Source: a virus. From it: a stretch of DNA of 27,872 bases. Each line of letters opens with the position of its first letter. The stretch's first letter is position 1. The position numbers and the translations under genes are program-made. The stretch is from IMG/VR virus record IMGVR_UViG_3300027782_000289, positions 1 through 27,872 of that record, one strand, 5' to 3'. This document shows positions 6,962-27,441 of this stretch, piece by piece. Below the pieces are notes generated by a model. The model was not told where the DNA came from, ran no database searches, and saw only the letters and a program-made list of their open reading frames with translations.

Positions 6962-7127
6962 AGTCTAGCTGCTGTTCAAACATGCTGGTCATATAGTTAT
7001 CTTCTCCTCTTGCAACATTTGCTGCAAGGATACGCATACCAAGGGCATTGGTGATAGAGTCCTCAATTGGAAGAGCCTCAATAGCCCTTGCGATTTCTTC
7101 TCGTAATGTCATTTCGTCTATACTCAT
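6954..7127 (-). CDS. 57-residue hypothetical protein, leaderless
   Basis: A helical, acidic protein (MSIDEMTLREEIARAIEALPIEDS...QQLDFE). Its promoter at 7134-7162 places the start of transcription on the ATG itself. The ending QLDFE resembles QVDFE of the 46-residue protein at 10418-10558, suggesting a shared C-terminal tail. Confidence 0.65.
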   Translation of the reverse strand: MSIDEMTLREEIARAIEALPIEDSITNALGMRILAANVARGEDNYMTSMFEQQLDFE

Positions 7128-11964: not shown

Positions 11965-12018
11965 TTATCCACAAGTAAATAAGCATAAAATATCATAGTT
12001 ATCCACATGTTATCCACA
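11965..12018 (+). repeat. three perfect DnaA boxes
   Basis: TTATCCACA occurs at 11965-11973, 11999-12007 and 12010-12018, all in the same orientation; the last two are 11 bp apart, one helical turn. The first and third are followed by the same AGTAAAT. This is the consensus high-affinity DnaA site. Lying in an intergenic, AT-rich, repeat-dense region, it suggests a replication origin. Confidence 0.8.
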
Positions 12019-12024
12019 AGTAAA

Positions 12025-12455
12025 TCTTACTGATATTTTTAATATATGGTTTGGGTGGAGGGAAGTGGAGGATAGTGGAGTATTGAGCACTTTTACAGAT
12101 GGCGTCGTAATGTCCACGGCTTTTAAAGGGGCCTGCCAAACCTCACATAACAAACCTTACAAACCTTCAAACCTTTCTTTGGGGCATGGATCATATCATA
12201 CAAACCTCTATTTGTCAAACCTTTATAGCTTAAAAACCCTATAAAAAACCTATACAAAATTGCCCATAATGTCCAGAAATATAATAGAAAGGTTTGATAA
12301 TATTTAATAACATATCCAAAACCAGGAGAAAAGGTTTGTTATTCTATAGGGGTTTATTGTTGTATGGTTTATATATATCCCCCGTCAAAAACGGGGACGC
12401 TAAAGCGTTGATCGTAATGTCTAACAGGATTATTTGATGCGTTATGGCGGGGGAT
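12025..12455. repeat. origin-like intergenic region: iterons and hairpins
   Basis: No gene is visible. CAAACCT occurs at 12137, 12151, 12160, 12168, 12201 and 12216, and its reverse, AGGTTTG, at 12290 and 12332, around an AT-rich stretch (12225-12320). TCGTAATGTC occurs at 12105 and 12412. Two tandem hairpins follow: CCCCGT/ACGGGG at about 12380 and ACGCT/AGCGT at about 12397. An outer inverted repeat ATCCCCCG/CGGGGGAT (12378 and 12444 regions) encloses them. Adjacent DnaA boxes make an origin the simplest reading. Confidence 0.6.
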
Positions 12456-12641
12456 TTAAAAAGCTAGAACTAAAGCATATAGAGTAATAAGCACAATAGC
12501 AGTACCCAAACATACAGATAAGATCAAAGCTCTTTCTGATCCATCATCTTCTGAATTATTATCATGATGATCATGGTGTTTAGAGAAACCATTATTAATG
12601 AAGTAAGGTCCCCCATGCTTTGAAAAATAGTTTCTTCCCAT
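12456..12641 (-). CDS. His-rich single-span membrane protein, leaderless
   Basis: A 61-residue product with a basic N-terminus, a metal-binding-like KHHDHHDNNSEDD stretch (about 22-34) and a C-terminal membrane helix (LILSVCLGTAIVLITLYALVLAF). TGTTATAAT stands exactly six bases before the ATG. It is isolated between the two halves of the repeat region. Unknown function. Confidence 0.6.
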   Translation of the reverse strand: MGRNYFSKHGGPYFINNGFSKHHDHHDNNSEDDGSERALILSVCLGTAIVLITLYALVLAF

Positions 12642-12893
12642 AGCATTATTATAACATGGTTTGACAAAGAAGGTTTGATATGCTATGAATCTGGAAAATA
12701 TTTTGACTGGTCGTAATGTCTTTTATAAAATAAGGTTTGGTGGTTTGTCCATGAATCTGGAAAATTTTTAAGATCCTCGTAATGTCTGAAAATGGGAAAA
12801 ATTTGGACATATCGTAATAAGGTTTGATGGTTTTGCTCGGGACCTCGGAGGCACAACGGCAGGCTTTTGTCAAGCCCACCGCTGCCATTACTA
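12642..12893. repeat. second half of the origin-like repeat region
   Basis: AGGTTTG lies at 12671, 12733 and 12820. TCGTAATGTC lies at 12711 and 12777, with a partial copy at 12812. A 15-bp direct repeat starting ATGAATCTGG lies at 12684 and 12750. At about 12860-12890 a nested hairpin (GGCAG/CTGCC around GGCTT/AAGCC) could terminate the leftward gene at 12894. I see no convincing gene; frames here are interrupted by the repeats. Confidence 0.6.
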
Positions 12894-13186: not shown

Positions 13187-13555
13187 TTATACTACTGCGT
13201 GCTCAGGTAAATATGCTTGTATAAACTTATCCCATTTGACAGGAACATTATCAGTAACTGTCTTGTTAACAAAATCAATGATTACGGTTTGTTCACCTAA
13301 ATCATAGTTAGTACCATTAATGGCATAAATTCCAAATCCTGTTTCATCTAAAATATTGTGCTGCATTAGATAACTGATTATCATCCTGGTTCCATATGCA
13401 GCGTCATTCCAACGTGGCTTGGCATGCTCTAAAGCTTGGGCAATGTCAACTTCCCATTGGTCCTGGCCCCAGTGACTGTATAGGACAACAGATACAGATG
13501 GCTCTCCTACTGCAGGCTCTGAGTCTTTAAAAACAAAATTAATTCTTGCTCCCAT
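13187..13555 (-). CDS. actinophage-type hypothetical protein
   Basis: A 122-residue protein (MGARINFVFKDSEP... VSVVLYSHWGQDQWEVDIAQALEHAKPRW... DETGFGIYAI). The VLYSHWG and AKPRWxDxxYxTRMxIS patterns are ones I associate with a widespread small protein of actinobacteriophages with no known function. Its ATG overlaps the TAA of the upstream gene by one base (TAATG). Confidence 0.75.
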   Translation of the reverse strand: MGARINFVFKDSEPAVGEPSVSVVLYSHWGQDQWEVDIAQALEHAKPRWNDAAYGTRMIISYLMQHNILDETGFGIYAINGTNYDLGEQTVIIDFVNKTVTDNVPVKWDKFIQAYLPEHAVV

Positions 13556-21469: not shown

Positions 21470-21646
21470 AGCCTATTAGACAAAAGTTATCAACCTACTA
21501 GTGAGTAGTCTTAAATAATGAGACGCTCAACAAATGTGAGAAAAATCACAACCACGTAAAGTTATCCACAAGAACCTGTGGAAAAACCCCCGAGCTTTTT
21601 TATTTAGAAAGATCAAGCAGTTTTAAAACTTGCTTAGGTTTTTATT
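21470..21646. promoter_or_regulatory. control region with CRP-like site, DnaA boxes and hairpin
   Basis: No gene. From the right: the CTGAGYA-like hairpin (21612-21638), CCCCGAGC (21588-21595), a DnaA-like TTTTCCACA on the reverse strand (21577-21585), a perfect TTATCCACA (21562-21570), TGTGA-N6-TCACA (21535-21550) and TGAGACGCT (21520). The CRP-like site is 84.5 bp from the start predicted for the degenerate TAAACT box. The order matches 24500-24607. Confidence 0.65.
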
Positions 21647-21799
21647 TTATTTTAGAAGTCGTTCAGTTCGCAAAGTGATTTGAAGTCTGCGAATTTCTTT
21701 TTCTAATTTAACATTGCGTTGCCAAAATGCTATCATCATAGAAAGCGATCCAGCCAAAGCAATTACAATTGCGATTAGTGTTCCATTATCTAAAATCAT
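21647..21799 (-). CDS. 50-residue membrane-anchored coiled-coil protein
   Basis: An N-terminal membrane helix (LIAIVIALAGSLSMMIAFW) and a basic coiled coil (VKLEKEIRRLQITLRTERLLK). Such small anchored proteins may be holin-associated or spanin-like, but this is not demonstrated. It overlaps the upstream TGA (ATGA) and ends the operon beginning at 22401. Confidence 0.62.
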   Translation of the reverse strand: MILDNGTLIAIVIALAGSLSMMIAFWQRNVKLEKEIRRLQITLRTERLLK

Positions 21800-21981
21800 T
21801 TAGACATCTCCAATTCTTTAACGCAAGCATCCCAAAATCTGTTTTCATCAAATCTTGGATTGTCTGCACTAAACCATTCACTAAATTCAAAAATTAAATC
21901 TTGAAAAGTGTGTGAGTCAATTGTGTCTGCAAACTTATTTAGAATGCTTGCAGTTTCTACATAGTCTTTTCTTGTCATCAT
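21796..21981 (-). CDS. phage small protein (DNPRFD type)
   Basis: A 61-residue product MMTRKDYVETASILNKFADTIDSH... FSADNPRFDENRFWDACVKELE. The C-terminal D-N-P-R-F-D-x-x-R-F-x-x-A-C pattern recurs in small proteins of many phages and has no known function. The start overlaps the upstream TAA (TAATG). Confidence 0.75.
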   Translation of the reverse strand: MMTRKDYVETASILNKFADTIDSHTFQDLIFEFSEWFSADNPRFDENRFWDACVKELEMSK

Positions 21982-22184
21982 TACTCTGCCACCTTTAGGA
22001 TTGCATAGGAACCACCTGCATTTATTTCATCAAGGATTGGCTGTAAGCGAGAGCCTACCAAATCCTTTAGCATTCCTTCAAGCATTGTTACACGCATTGA
22101 CTCAGGAAGTGCAGACATCTGCATTGTTATAGGGTGTCCTTCTTTGAATTCTGTTACGAATTTTAAGTTGTGTTCAATTTTCAT
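21981..22184 (-). CDS. 67-residue hypothetical protein
   Basis: MKIEHNLKFVTEFKEGHPITMQMSALPESMRVTMLEGMLKDLVG... probably alpha/beta. Coupled downstream by TAATG; it starts 19 nt after the upstream stop. No family recognised. Confidence 0.68.
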   Translation of the reverse strand: MKIEHNLKFVTEFKEGHPITMQMSALPESMRVTMLEGMLKDLVGSRLQPILDEINAGGSYAILKVAE

Positions 22185-22203
22185 TTATTTTATTTCCTAT
22201 TCT

Positions 22204-22401
22204 TTAGTTTGATTTAGTAAGTGTGCGAGTGCCACGAAGTGTGCCACTTAGTCCAATAGTATCGCAAGCGATTTTTACAGATACGCCAACAGGTAAAGCG
22301 TTAGGGTATTCATTTACGAATTGAGCAACCTGACCTCGTGATGAGAAGTTGATTTTTTTAGTAGAACCTGAAAAGGTTTCTAGTGTTACAGTGTAAGTCA
22401 T
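22204..22401 (-). CDS. 65-residue hypothetical protein, first of operon
   Basis: MTYTVTLETFSGSTKKINFSSRGQVAQFVNEYPNALPVGVSVKIA... shows beta-beta-alpha-beta alternation. AAAGGAAG lies 7 nt before the ATG. It is served by the TTGTCAG-type promoter at 22435 and probably by a second promoter at 22555. Confidence 0.7.
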   Translation of the reverse strand: MTYTVTLETFSGSTKKINFSSRGQVAQFVNEYPNALPVGVSVKIACDTIGLSGTLRGTRTLTKSN

Positions 22402-22434
22402 TTATAGACTTCCTTTCGTTAAGTTGATAAGACT

Positions 22435-22500
22435 ATCCTATCATGGGGGGCTGACAAATCTTGGCATTTATTCGCTAGGCTCACTGTGATACTCGTCACA
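22435..22500 (-). promoter_or_regulatory. TTGTCAG-type promoter with CRP/GlxR-like site
   Basis: TTGTCA at 22452-22457, 11 nt, TAGGAT at 22435-22440. A perfect TGTGA-N6-TCACA (22485-22500) is centred 64.5 bp from the predicted start (22428). Confidence 0.72.
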
Positions 22501-22520
22501 TTTATTTGCTAGGCTCACTG
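22465..22520. repeat. 22-bp direct repeat flanking the CRP-like site
   Basis: Copies at 22465-22486 and 22499-22520 differ at one base, with a 34-bp period. The CRP-like palindrome sits exactly between and overlaps both. The core (leftward GTGAGCCTAG) resembles the start of the leader at about 24947. Confidence 0.7.
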
Positions 22521-22554
22521 CCTGATTTATCTTTATTTAATTGTTATACCTACA

Positions 22555-22630
22555 AGGATACCAAATAAATCTAAAAAAGTCAAGACGACACGCCGTAAAA
22601 TGGGAAAGATTTTGTGTGACCTTAAACACA
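22555..22630 (-). promoter_or_regulatory. canonical promoter with CRP/GlxR-like site
   Basis: TTGACT (22578-22583), 17 nt, TATCCT (22555-22560). TGTGA-N6-ACACA (22615-22630) is centred 74.5 bp upstream of the predicted start (22548). It overlooks the region up to the 22401 gene, within which I see no gene. DnaA-like boxes TTATACACA (22635) and reverse TTTTCCACA (22647-22655) lie further upstream. Confidence 0.65.
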
Positions 22631-22663
22631 TAAGTTATACACAGCCTGTGGAAAACGCCCGAG

Positions 22664-22702
22664 CAAAAAATCACAGCTTTTTAGCTCTGTGATCTTTTTT
22701 TT
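22664..22702 (-). terminator. bidirectional Rho-independent terminator
   Basis: A 7-bp stem ATCACAG/CTGTGAT with T-runs on both outer sides (TTTTTT leftward, eight T rightward), placed just after the stop at 22704. Confidence 0.85.
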
Positions 22703-22703
22703 A

Positions 22704-22769
22704 TTATGCTCCGTTATGTATCCAAATTACAAAAGCAAATGAAGTGATAGCAATTAAAACAACTAACAT
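22704..22769 (-). CDS. 21-residue hydrophobic peptide
   Basis: MLVVLIAITSFAFVIWIHNGA is a single membrane helix. It is coupled to the upstream gene by TAATG and is followed by the terminator. Its length leaves it doubtful, but the coupling pattern supports translation. Confidence 0.45.
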   Translation of the reverse strand: MLVVLIAITSFAFVIWIHNGA

Positions 22770-22906
22770 TAGTCTAACTCCAATTCTGTATAATCAACAA
22801 CAATAAAATCAAGTCGTTCCAGTGGAATAACTTTTAACCATGAAAGTGCAGACTCAAAGTTATCATCTTCAACAGTAACGGAAATGTCAAAATTAAATAC
22901 TGGCAT
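22769..22906 (-). CDS. 45-residue beta-alpha-beta protein, paralogue of 23566
   Basis: MPVFNFDISVTVEDDNFESALSWLKVIPLERLDFIVVDYTELELD shares the frame M-x-V-F-x-F, V-x-V-E, A and a late V-x-D-x-x-x-L-E with the 48-residue protein at 23566-23712. TAATG couples it on both sides. Function unknown. Confidence 0.62.
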   Translation of the reverse strand: MPVFNFDISVTVEDDNFESALSWLKVIPLERLDFIVVDYTELELD

Positions 22907-23073
22907 TAGTTATCTCCTTTTTGTTTTGCAAGTGTAAGAATTAACTCTAACTGTTGTGTAGTTAGTAGTGCTTGAGCGCAACCCCAAGTAAATGCAAGTG
23001 CAAGAGCGCTATCTCCATAGTGCTCATTAGCAAGAGTGTTTATCTCTTGCACTATCTCAAAATTAGTTTTCAT
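22906..23073 (-). CDS. 55-residue helical hypothetical protein
   Basis: MKTNFEIVQEINTLANEHYGDSALALAFTWGCAQALLTTQQLELILTLAKQKGDN is largely helical and amphipathic. TAATG joins it to both neighbours; AAAGGAG near its end serves the next gene. Confidence 0.62.
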   Translation of the reverse strand: MKTNFEIVQEINTLANEHYGDSALALAFTWGCAQALLTTQQLELILTLAKQKGDN

Positions 23074-23219
23074 TAGTTTTCTACTTTCTTTAATTCATGA
23101 TTATTATTAAGGGGGCGATTGTTATTTGAGAACATGGACTCTATAACCGCTTTATCTTTTAGTGATTGAGCAATTCTTTTTTCTTGTTGCTCTTTTAGTA
23201 TTCTATAAAAAGTGCTCAT
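23073..23219 (-). CDS. 48-residue hypothetical protein, paralogue of the gene at 25031
   Basis: It begins MSTFYRILKEQQEKRIAQSL and continues through KDKAVIESMF to NNRPLNN. It aligns along its whole length with the rightward gene at 25031 (K-E-Q-x-E-K-R, KDKA, SMF, NRPLNN shared). The two copies lie in divergent operons. It overlaps its neighbours as ATGA and TAATG. Confidence 0.68.
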   Translation of the reverse strand: MSTFYRILKEQQEKRIAQSLKDKAVIESMFSNNNRPLNNNHELKKVEN

Positions 23220-23311
23220 TTGTCTGAGCCTTTCTTTAGTATGGACATGGCTTGCAAGGTGCTTGCCTTGCGTTGCGCTTCTACAAGCGCCTTGTATTCA
23301 TCTAGTGTCAT
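23216..23311 (-). CDS. 31-residue hypothetical protein, first of operon
   Basis: MTLDEYKALVEAQRKASTLQAMSILKKGSDK, helical. GAAAGG lies about 10 nt before the ATG and the promoter at 23347 precedes it, which supports so short a gene. Confidence 0.58.
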   Translation of the reverse strand: MTLDEYKALVEAQRKASTLQAMSILKKGSDK

Positions 23312-23346
23312 TTATTTAACGACCTTTCTTTTTGTTTATACTAGCA

Positions 23347-23422
23347 ATTCTAGCATGGGGGTCTGACAAATTGGGGACGTTCTTGGGCGTGTCGTAGAAT
23401 TATTTTTGTGATGTTGGTCACA
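23347..23422 (-). promoter_or_regulatory. TTGTCAG-type promoter with perfect CRP/GlxR-like site
   Basis: TTGTCA at 23364-23369, 11 nt, TAGAAT at 23347-23352. TGTGA-N6-TCACA at 23407-23422 is centred 74.5 bp from the predicted start (23340). GCCCCGAGC follows at 23426. Confidence 0.75.
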
Positions 23423-23434
23423 AACGCCCCGAGC

Positions 23435-23469
23435 AAAATTTGCAGCTGTTACACTGCAAATCTTTTTTT
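23435..23469 (-). terminator. bidirectional terminator
   Basis: An 8-bp perfect stem ATTTGCAG/CTGCAAAT, 8-nt loop, with TTT on the leftward side and C plus seven T on the rightward side. It ends the operon from 24419 to 23468. Confidence 0.8.
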
Positions 23470-23566
23470 ACTTATTGCCAAACATGTTAAAAATTTCATC
23501 AACCTGTTCATCAGTTAAGTGATCTAACTGAATTGCTTTTTCAAATTCAAATAAATCTTTTTCCAT
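23468..23566 (-). CDS. 32-residue acidic hypothetical protein
   Basis: MEKDLFEFEKAIQLDHLTDEQVDEIFNMFGNK, two acidic helices. Coupled upstream by TAATG and followed by the terminator. Confidence 0.55.
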   Translation of the reverse strand: MEKDLFEFEKAIQLDHLTDEQVDEIFNMFGNK

Positions 23567-23712
23567 TATGCAATCTCCAAATCTTTTATGTCAGCGACAT
23601 AGACATTATCTTTATTTATTCCGTATTTTAACTGGAATTGAAATACATCAATAGCCTCATCATAGGACTCAGCCTCTACATTTATGAAAGCGTTAAACTC
23701 AAATACAGCCAT
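23566..23712 (-). CDS. 48-residue beta-alpha-beta protein, paralogue of 22769
   Basis: It begins MAVFEFNAFINVEAESYDEA and ends VYVADIKDLEIA: strand, helix, strand, with V-x-V-E-A and a late V-x-V-x-D. It matches the 22769 product in pattern and length, and both lie near the end of their operons. Function unknown. Confidence 0.62.
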   Translation of the reverse strand: MAVFEFNAFINVEAESYDEAIDVFQFQLKYGINKDNVYVADIKDLEIA

Positions 23713-23906
23713 TACTTAACCAACCCTTCAAACCATTGGGAAAATCCACCTGTAAAAAATACTTCCTCACCTTTATGGTTAGTAAGTGTTGCAATTACTG
23801 ATTGAGTTTCATCATTAACCTCAAGAATTTCTTTAACAAGAAAATTTTGATCGTTGGAAATAAACAGTTTTCCAACAGTGATTTTATTTATTAGTGTCAT
23901 GCTCAT
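23712..23906 (-). CDS. 64-residue beta-rich hypothetical protein
   Basis: MSMTLINKITVGKLFISNDQNFLVKEILEVNDETQSVIATLTNHKGEEVFFTGGF... has the strand pattern of a small SH3-like domain, like the products at 18818 and 21167. TAATG couples it on both sides. Confidence 0.68.
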   Translation of the reverse strand: MSMTLINKITVGKLFISNDQNFLVKEILEVNDETQSVIATLTNHKGEEVFFTGGFSQWFEGLVK

Positions 23907-24070
23907 TACTTATTCCCCTTATAAAGAAAGTCCCACGCCTTACGGCATAACAAAATGCTTTCGCAATTATCGCAACAGATAACACCATGAGGGTTTAATT
24001 CAAGGTCATACATGTCTATTGTGGTAGTAACCGCACCACATACAGACTTAACAGGTACATAGGTACTCAT
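23906..24070 (-). CDS. 54-residue zinc-binding hypothetical protein
   Basis: MSTYVPVKSVCGAVTTTIDMYDLELNPHGVICCDNCESILLCRKAWDFLYKGNK contains C-G, H, C-C-x-x-C and a late C, consistent with a zinc site. Coupled by ATGA upstream and TAATG downstream. Confidence 0.64.
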   Translation of the reverse strand: MSTYVPVKSVCGAVTTTIDMYDLELNPHGVICCDNCESILLCRKAWDFLYKGNK

Positions 24071-24249
24071 CTCTTTAGTCCTTCCGTTCCATAGGTATTT
24101 ATAAAATCAGGGAGAGCCATAACGCCCTTGTAGTCCTTACATGCTGGGCAAAATCTATTCCACCCGTCAAATAGTGTTATGCAAAAAGCGCAGATGTTAT
24201 CCATAGCGCATAAGCCTTGCTCATCTATGAATTGCATAGTGTCGTTCAT
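24067..24249 (-). CDS. 60-residue zinc-ribbon protein
   Basis: MNDTMQFIDEQGLCAMDNICAFCITLFDGWNRFCPACKDYKG...: C-x-x-C and C-x-x-C thirteen residues apart form a zinc ribbon. Overlaps both neighbours as ATGA. Confidence 0.7.
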   Translation of the reverse strand: MNDTMQFIDEQGLCAMDNICAFCITLFDGWNRFCPACKDYKGVMALPDFINTYGTEGLKR

Positions 24250-24419
24250 TTAGTCACATACCAATCTGTCCATGTAGGAAATTGCTCAGGGTCACTATCA
24301 TAGTAGTAACGCTCAATGTTATTTTCACAATCCATGCAGAAAGTAAATTGTTCATCTCCAATTTCAGAGATAGCGGAAAGCATAGGTTTATGCTCATGTG
24401 TTTTTGTTAATGTAGTCAT
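24246..24419 (-). CDS. 57-residue hypothetical protein, first of operon
   Basis: MTTLTKTHEHKPMLSAISEIGDEQFTFCMDCENNIERYYYDSDPEQFPTWTDWYVTK has one C-x-x-C and an acidic aromatic tail. GAAAGGTGG lies about 8 nt before the ATG. It heads the six-gene operon ending at 23468. Confidence 0.66.
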   Translation of the reverse strand: MTTLTKTHEHKPMLSAISEIGDEQFTFCMDCENNIERYYYDSDPEQFPTWTDWYVTK

Positions 24420-24476
24420 TTTATGACCACCTTTCTTTAGTGGATTTCTTTACCACTTTTATTTTCTTATACTGCA

Positions 24477-24563
24477 AGTATAGCCTATAAGTCTGACATT
24501 TATCAACCTACTAGCCAGTAATTCCAGATAGTGAGACGCTCAAGTAATGTGATAAAGGACACA
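24477..24563 (-). promoter_or_regulatory. TTGTCAG-type promoter with CRP/GlxR-like site
   Basis: ATGTCA at 24494-24499, 11 nt, TATACT at 24477-24482; TTGATA just upstream may act as -35. TGTGA-N6-ACACA at 24548-24563 is centred 85.5 bp from the predicted start (24470). Confidence 0.72.
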
Positions 24564-24574
24564 CTCACTTAAAG

Positions 24575-24596
24575 TTATCCACAGAAGTTATCCACA
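24575..24596 (+). repeat. two DnaA boxes between divergent promoters
   Basis: TTATCCACA at 24575-24583 and 24588-24596, 13 bp apart, both in forward orientation, between the leftward and rightward CRP-linked promoters. Confidence 0.75.
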
Positions 24597-27248: not shown

Positions 27249-27441
27249 ATTTTTCTAGCTCCCACATACGGATATCAACAAAACCATACATCGCTGAAAA
27301 AGCTGCTTCTTCTGTTGGTGCTTCAACAACCATTCTTGCATTTTCTTCAATGTTTATTTCTGCGGTATATTCTTTTTTAGCATTGTCAAGATAAGTTTCT
27401 TTGATAACACTAAGAATTGGCTTATAGTAGTATTTAGGCAA
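27238..27441 (-). CDS. 67-residue hypothetical protein
   Basis: MPKYYYKPILSVIKETYLDNAKKEYTAEINIEENARMVVEAPTEEAAFSAMYGF...: a beta-alpha pattern with V-E-A-x-x-x-E-E-A, like the small proteins at 17607, 22769 and 23566. Start TTG at 27441 overlaps the upstream stop (TTGCCTAA). Confidence 0.62.
   Translation of the reverse strand: MPKYYYKPILSVIKETYLDNAKKEYTAEINIEENARMVVEAPTEEAAFSAMYGFVDIRMWELEKFED

Follow-up and report, generated by a model that had tools for sequence, protein, structure and literature searches.

Does the repeat-rich, nearly gene-free stretch at positions 11965-12893 of a 27,872-bp virus fragment (IMGVR_UViG_3300027782_000289, hereafter the window) serve to start replication, and if so, which protein would act there? 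The initial annotation had proposed an origin of about 900 bp that combines DnaA boxes, pointing to the host initiator, with iterons, pointing to a phage-encoded binding protein. Based on the comparisons described below, we consider it probable that replication of this large actinophage starts at a much shorter core, at about 11965-12218, which uses the DnaA protein of the host.

The window encodes a Nol-like carbamoyltransferase, a gene product 88 homolog, a DUF932 protein, and an HNH endonuclease that weakly resembles phage WhiB-like proteins, and these genes, together with the replication genes of related viruses, place the virus among the actinophages. In a comparison of DnaB proteins, the closest cultured relatives were Streptomyces phages with 38% identity. 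A direct comparison of the DNA of the region with cultured phages gave no meaningful match, and DSL-LC01 was ruled out as a relative sharing the same origin, as it lacks exact boxes.

The repeats that had been described in the region are real and far more frequent than expected by chance. Three perfect TTATCCACA boxes lie on the plus strand at 11965, 11999, and 12010, the latter two 11 bp apart (3 observed against 0.013 expected in the region; 7 against 0.44 in the whole window). CAAACCT occurs six times (12137, 12151, 12160, 12168, 12201, and 12216) and AGGTTTG five times (12290, 12332, 12671, 12733, and 12820), which makes 11 copies against 0.17 expected and a shuffle maximum of 2; in 300 shuffles, no 7-mer of any kind exceeded 7 copies. 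The four TCGTAATGTC repeats (12105, 12412, 12711, and 12777, with an extra copy at 7101) never arose in 1000 shuffles, and the 15-bp direct repeat ATGAATCTGGAAAAT, at 12685 and 12751, is present as well, as are the two tandem hairpins within an outer inverted repeat. The view that the 900 bp are nearly free of genes needs some correction, since a small open reading frame with a conserved N-terminus lies among the repeats. The -10 element of its promoter P1 ends so close to the start codon that a leaderless mRNA is suggested, and the gene is thus a probable leaderless gene. Further features of the region are as follows:

12137-12222, plus strand: six CAAACCT heptamers, two of which overlap or sit inside promoter P2
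12290-12826, minus strand: five CAAACCT heptamers (AGGTTTG on the plus strand); in 55 of 101 loci, no heptamer is commoner than AGGTTTG
12377-12455, unstranded: two tandem hairpins within an outer inverted repeat, -30.8 kcal/mol for the plus strand, found in close relatives only
12456-12641, minus strand: small open reading frame of 61 amino acids with a hydrophobic C-terminus and the N-terminus MGRNYFSKHGGPYF, which is conserved in relatives
12648-12653, minus strand: extended -10 element of promoter P1 in the context TGTTATAAT, 6 nt before the start codon of the 61-residue reading frame

Related viruses delimit the element more sharply. Using a pattern of box plus TTACTG, we matched at least 120 viral contigs, and at least 110 distinct, non-redundant viral copies share the same order of elements, with the core being kept almost letter for letter in more than 100 related viruses. 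As this pattern itself required the boxes, conservation was judged on a second set, for which we searched with the protein encoded at 13187-13555 (minus strand) and which is therefore blind to the boxes. This protein-anchored search yielded 46 phage loci, nearly all of which had paired boxes downstream of the anchor gene and most of which had AGGTTTG/CAAACCT repeats. The core was found in 37 of 44 loci and DnaA boxes at the locus in 41 of 44, and column identities were taken from the 37 core loci. Absence of the repeats from close relatives, which had been named as evidence against an origin, was checked, and the repeats proved to be present in most of them. What conservation singles out, however, is a unit of about 250 bp at 11965-12218 and not the entire 900 bp. 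The order of its elements in the alignment is AGTTATCCACA-n2/3-TTATCCACA-nn-TAAATCTTACTGAT-(AT-rich)-GTGGAG x3 at 10 bp-~25 nt-TCGTAAT, with the paired TTATCCACA boxes 11-12 bp apart and the AT-rich block (TAAATCTTACTGAT...) directly on their 3' side. In the window, the core comprises:

11965-11973, plus strand: upstream DnaA box TTATCCACA, semi-conserved with 71% mean column identity and located 34 bp ahead of the pair
11999-12007, plus strand: DnaA box 1 of the pair, 94% mean column identity (upstream flank 49%)
12010-12018, plus strand: DnaA box 2 of the pair, 95% mean column identity, 11 bp from box 1
12021-12047, unstranded: AT-rich block TAAATCTTACTGATATTTTTAATATAT, candidate DNA unwinding element, 89% mean column identity at 12021-12036
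12055-12080, plus strand: three GTGGAG repeats at an exact spacing of 10 bp, most bases 90-100% conserved in 110 cores and 84% in the protein-anchored set
12105-12114, plus strand: core copy of TCGTAATGTC, 89% mean column identity in the protein-anchored set, its TCGTAAT 92-100% conserved in 110 cores
12190-12218, minus strand: predicted promoter P2, TTGACA-17-TATGAT, directed at the AT-rich block and the DnaA boxes beyond it

Of the 101 loci for which 800 nt downstream were available, all had at least two copies of ATTACGA. In two relatives (L026 and L033), a short open reading frame for a membrane peptide of about 28 residues (MKPFLIAMLGLFLFLNYMAYLQQIRMSG in L026) follows right behind the upstream DnaA box; the window has no such reading frame there.

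The core is specific to viruses. Among 84,980 bacterial and archaeal genomes, the box plus TTACTG pattern matched a single contig, a 22.9-kb piece of a Chitinophagaceae metagenome-assembled genome (L244, core at 2379-2413), which is probably a mis-binned phage.

The core has what is expected of an origin of the oriC type, namely a conserved cluster of DnaA boxes well above chance and, beside it, an AT-rich element that should melt easily, the latter as judged from nearest-neighbour stability only. By this measure, the best 30-bp stretch of the AT-rich block is within the weakest 0.1-1.1% of six genomes, the window included. When we read the consensus of the 110 copies by eye for DnaA-trio repeats, no regular trinucleotide run was seen.

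On the far side of the AT-rich block lies P2. Promoters of the type TTGACA-17-TATAAT correspond to the consensus, and 106 of 110 copies have the exact TTGACA, 108 a spacer of 17 bp, and 75 the exact TATAAT, at a median distance of 156 nt to TTACTG and facing the core. Promoter matches above 10/12 were rare in shuffled controls. In a promoter-like scan on its own, matches were no more frequent than in shuffles, and P2 is credible because it is conserved: in the protein-anchored set, column identity is 100% in the -35 and 94% in the -10 element and 60% in the spacer. Predicted transcripts from P2 would first cross TCGTAAT, then GTGGAG and the AT-rich block, and finally enter the boxes. A conserved RNA element in the core was rejected, as no RNA fold with covariation was found (covariation term about 0) and an Rfam search returned tRNAs and no other RNA element.

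The heptamers are less easily reconciled with the iteron view. They are only 7 bp long, occur in both orientations, and follow each other at irregular distances of 8-33 bp and more, and several overlap the conserved promoter. The iteron part of the initial annotation is thus only partly supported. A phage protein that binds AGGTTTG/CAAACCT is likely; the overlap with P2 suggests a regulator, which may control P2 rather than serve as an initiator, although in three relatives described next, related repeats are found where the boxes were lost.

Loci that depart from the common pattern are informative. By HMM, the core was absent from seven loci (L041, L044, L047, L056, L057, L058, and L061), each of which has at least one DnaA box there. 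In two of these (L057 and L058), six TTATCCACA and one TTTTCCACA follow each other at steps of 21-22 bp, with an AT-rich stretch behind them, and the array adjoins a 30-bp stretch that is among the weakest of the genome. The L057 array corresponds to 27269-27404 of record G007, where its seven DnaA-type boxes are helically phased. In another record (G005), the AT-rich block lies behind a single box, and further boxes are 21-24 bp apart. The boxes are kept in 34 of the 37 core-bearing loci. In the other three (L027, L038, and L046, one of them a close relative), the box pair is lost while the AT-rich block and P2 are kept, and GGTTTG-type repeats occupy the former position of the boxes. This counts against the origin reading, as the boxes are thus not strictly needed, or these phages use something else.

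The gene content of the relatives also bears on the identity of the initiator. The relatives encode DnaB, primase, a DnaE-like Pol III alpha, and RecA. DnaB is present in 12 of 13 related records, and G001 encodes DnaB, a DnaG-type primase, a putative DnaE-type polymerase of 1091 residues, and RecA in a row, an order that equals that of Streptomyces phage Karimac. No dnaA gene was found in the 13 records, by which a phage-encoded DnaA was rejected, and no tyrosine integrase and no ParA-type ATPase (PF13614) were found in them either, by which prophage-type maintenance was rejected. Among the open reading frames adjoining the region, no Rep initiator gene was obvious, with the small flanking ones only partly searched against families.

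Cultured phages provide a counterpart. A gene-free stretch of 1.4 kb in Karimac (about 118.84-120.23 kb) contains TTATCCACA...TGTGGATAA, with the box pair at about 119.2 kb, and six TCGTAA repeats; it is the largest gene-free region of Stanwilliamsviridae and was matched in 36 Streptomyces phage records. Wofford, Genie2, Enygma, and Wipeout have retained the complete inverted box pair, and Mildred21 has one box. The replisome gene order, the TTATCCACA pair, and the TCGTAA repeats are shared with the core, whereas the boxes are inverted and 12-24 bp apart, the CAAACCT array is missing, and the sequence is otherwise unrelated. As a separate lineage, these phages support the reading as an origin. 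We found no description of this region as an origin in the open-access literature searched. Conservation, architecture, phage gene content, and cultured relatives together support the proposed origin with host DnaA boxes well.

We suggest the following mechanism. Host DnaA would bind the TTATCCACA boxes, which are paired and in some cases number three or more, and spread from there over the AT-rich block on their 3' side. Transcription from P2 would enter this block from the opposite side and either help opening or supply a primer, and the phage DnaB helicase, DnaG-type primase, and DnaE-like polymerase would load on the opened strands. The putative AGGTTTG/CAAACCT-binding phage protein would probably control P2 and hence the timing of initiation. 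As GGTTTG-type repeats stand in place of the boxes in a few relatives, this protein may replace DnaA there. A bolder reading, which we regard as conceivable but rather unlikely, is a swappable initiator slot beside the AT-rich block: most members would have host DnaA boxes in it, others sites for a GGTTTG-type phage protein, and all would share an unchanged AT-rich block, TCGTAAT box, and inward promoter. If true, phages of a single family would have been caught switching between initiation by the host and initiation by themselves.

Other DnaA boxes of the window have to be considered when weighing alternatives:

21562-24596, unstranded: secondary DnaA-box pairs at 21562/21577 (spanning 21562-21585), 22635/22647 (22635-22655), and 24575/24588 (24575-24596), inverted or direct, with no adjacent AT-rich block

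These pairs are 8-14 kb from the core, near a divergent gene junction, which speaks against the origin reading, and their counterparts in relatives include direct pairs of 42 bp in three records (G003, G008, and G010). We judged them to be regulatory sites outside the core. They adjoin TGTGA-N6-TCACA palindromes, the form bound by CRP/GlxR-type regulators. Five perfect palindromes are present in the window (21535, 22485, 23407, 24612, and 15328; 0.04 expected), four of them at 21.5-24.7 kb amid early promoters and the secondary boxes, and in 8 of 9 relatives, 4-9 of these palindromes were counted, most of them within the same arm.

A further point against the origin reading is that P2 may just be there to drive the genes behind it. 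The region might be a gene-control region in which P2 and P1 are early promoters, AGGTTTG the operators, and DnaA a transcription factor acting on the P2 leader, with no initiation here. The near-consensus P2 and the heptamers that overlap it fit such a view, as does the fact that other DnaA boxes of the same phages adjoin promoters and palindromes. Nevertheless, we consider it unlikely: the GTGGAG steps, the AT-rich block, and the boxes are found not at P2 but some 100-220 nt downstream of it, the other DnaA-box sites mostly lack an AT-rich block (30-bp stability percentiles of 64-97, compared to 99-100 at the core), and relatives kept the boxes at the locus despite unrelated flanks. Very unlikely, in our view, is an RNA-primed origin like that of non-RepA cluster A prophages, where a noncoding RNA is required (PMC7157519), with the P2 transcript as initiator and the boxes as dispensable helpers; the three relatives that lack the boxes have kept P2 and the transcribed core, but covariation gave no support for a conserved RNA fold, and retention of the boxes in 34 of 37 loci argues against dispensability.

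GC skew, proposed in the initial annotation as a check, did not settle the origin question, as cumulative skew has no clear turn at the core. Skew, both overall and at fourfold sites, follows gene direction without a break at the core, and it was therefore rejected as an origin marker. Among genes on the same strand, each of 7 genomes, which are related to each other, had a higher skew on the right side, and the change was about 3 kb off the core. In the window, the cumulative curve turns at about 25 kb, and its turn in relatives is close to the gene junction; one could thus place the true origin at this junction (about 24.4-24.7 kb, with the box pair 24575/24588) and regard the region at 11965-12893 as accessory. 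This is the least likely of the alternatives, and we hardly believe it. The turn coincides with the switch of the coding strand and is explained by transcription, the flank is GC-rich (stability percentile 68 in the window), and the spacing and orientation of such pairs vary among relatives, unlike those of the core.

The proposed host-DnaA origin in the core would be of interest, as little is known about initiation of replication in large actinophages; according to Wetzel et al., the replication systems of mycobacteriophages are not well characterised (PMC7157519). These phages bring their own helicase, primase, and polymerase and yet apparently leave initiation to host DnaA, which would tie phage copying to a cell-cycle regulator of the host. 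With its sharp limits, the core is easy to recognise by a simple pattern; together with the counterpart in cultured Streptomyces phages, this makes the idea testable now. Origins with DnaA boxes are a known kind, but we found no description of the arrangement and spread of this core in large actinophages in the open-access literature searched.

Like bacterial oriC, the core combines TTATCCACA boxes and, 3' of them, an AT-rich block, with host DnaA as the expected initiator, and a box pair also adjoins the unwinding region of the B. subtilis oriC (PMC10201434). In contrast to oriC, it usually has two or three boxes, GTGGAG steps, TCGTAAT repeats, and an inward promoter, and it sits on a phage with its own replication proteins. 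With the iteron origins of P1, RK2, and F (PMC4980987), it shares DnaA boxes by an AT-rich region and repeats that suggest a second, element-encoded binding protein. Classical iterons, however, are repeats of 17-22 bp (PMC4980987), and no regularly spaced direct repeats of this length were found; the irregular, bidirectional 7-mers and the lack of a recognised adjacent Rep gene differ, and we did not file the core as an iteron origin because of repeat length and arrangement. Non-RepA cluster A prophage origins (PMC7157519) are actinophage origins with a promoter-driven noncoding transcript, which for the core is predicted from P2, and the text of that paper does not mention DnaA. Those are prophage maintenance origins beside parABS, whereas the relatives studied here lack ParA-type ATPases and tyrosine integrases; as no partition cassette was found (no PF13614 in 13 related records), we did not assign the core to this class. 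At the lambda ori (PMC3985674), host RNA polymerase transcribes through the origin and DnaA-box-like sites are nearby; transcription of the core is predicted from P2, no O protein or 19-bp iterons were seen, and its DnaA boxes are exact and central. By analogy, the core would function most like oriC or like that part of iteron origins which depends on DnaA (PMC4980987), to which a promoter is added as at the lambda ori (PMC3985674).
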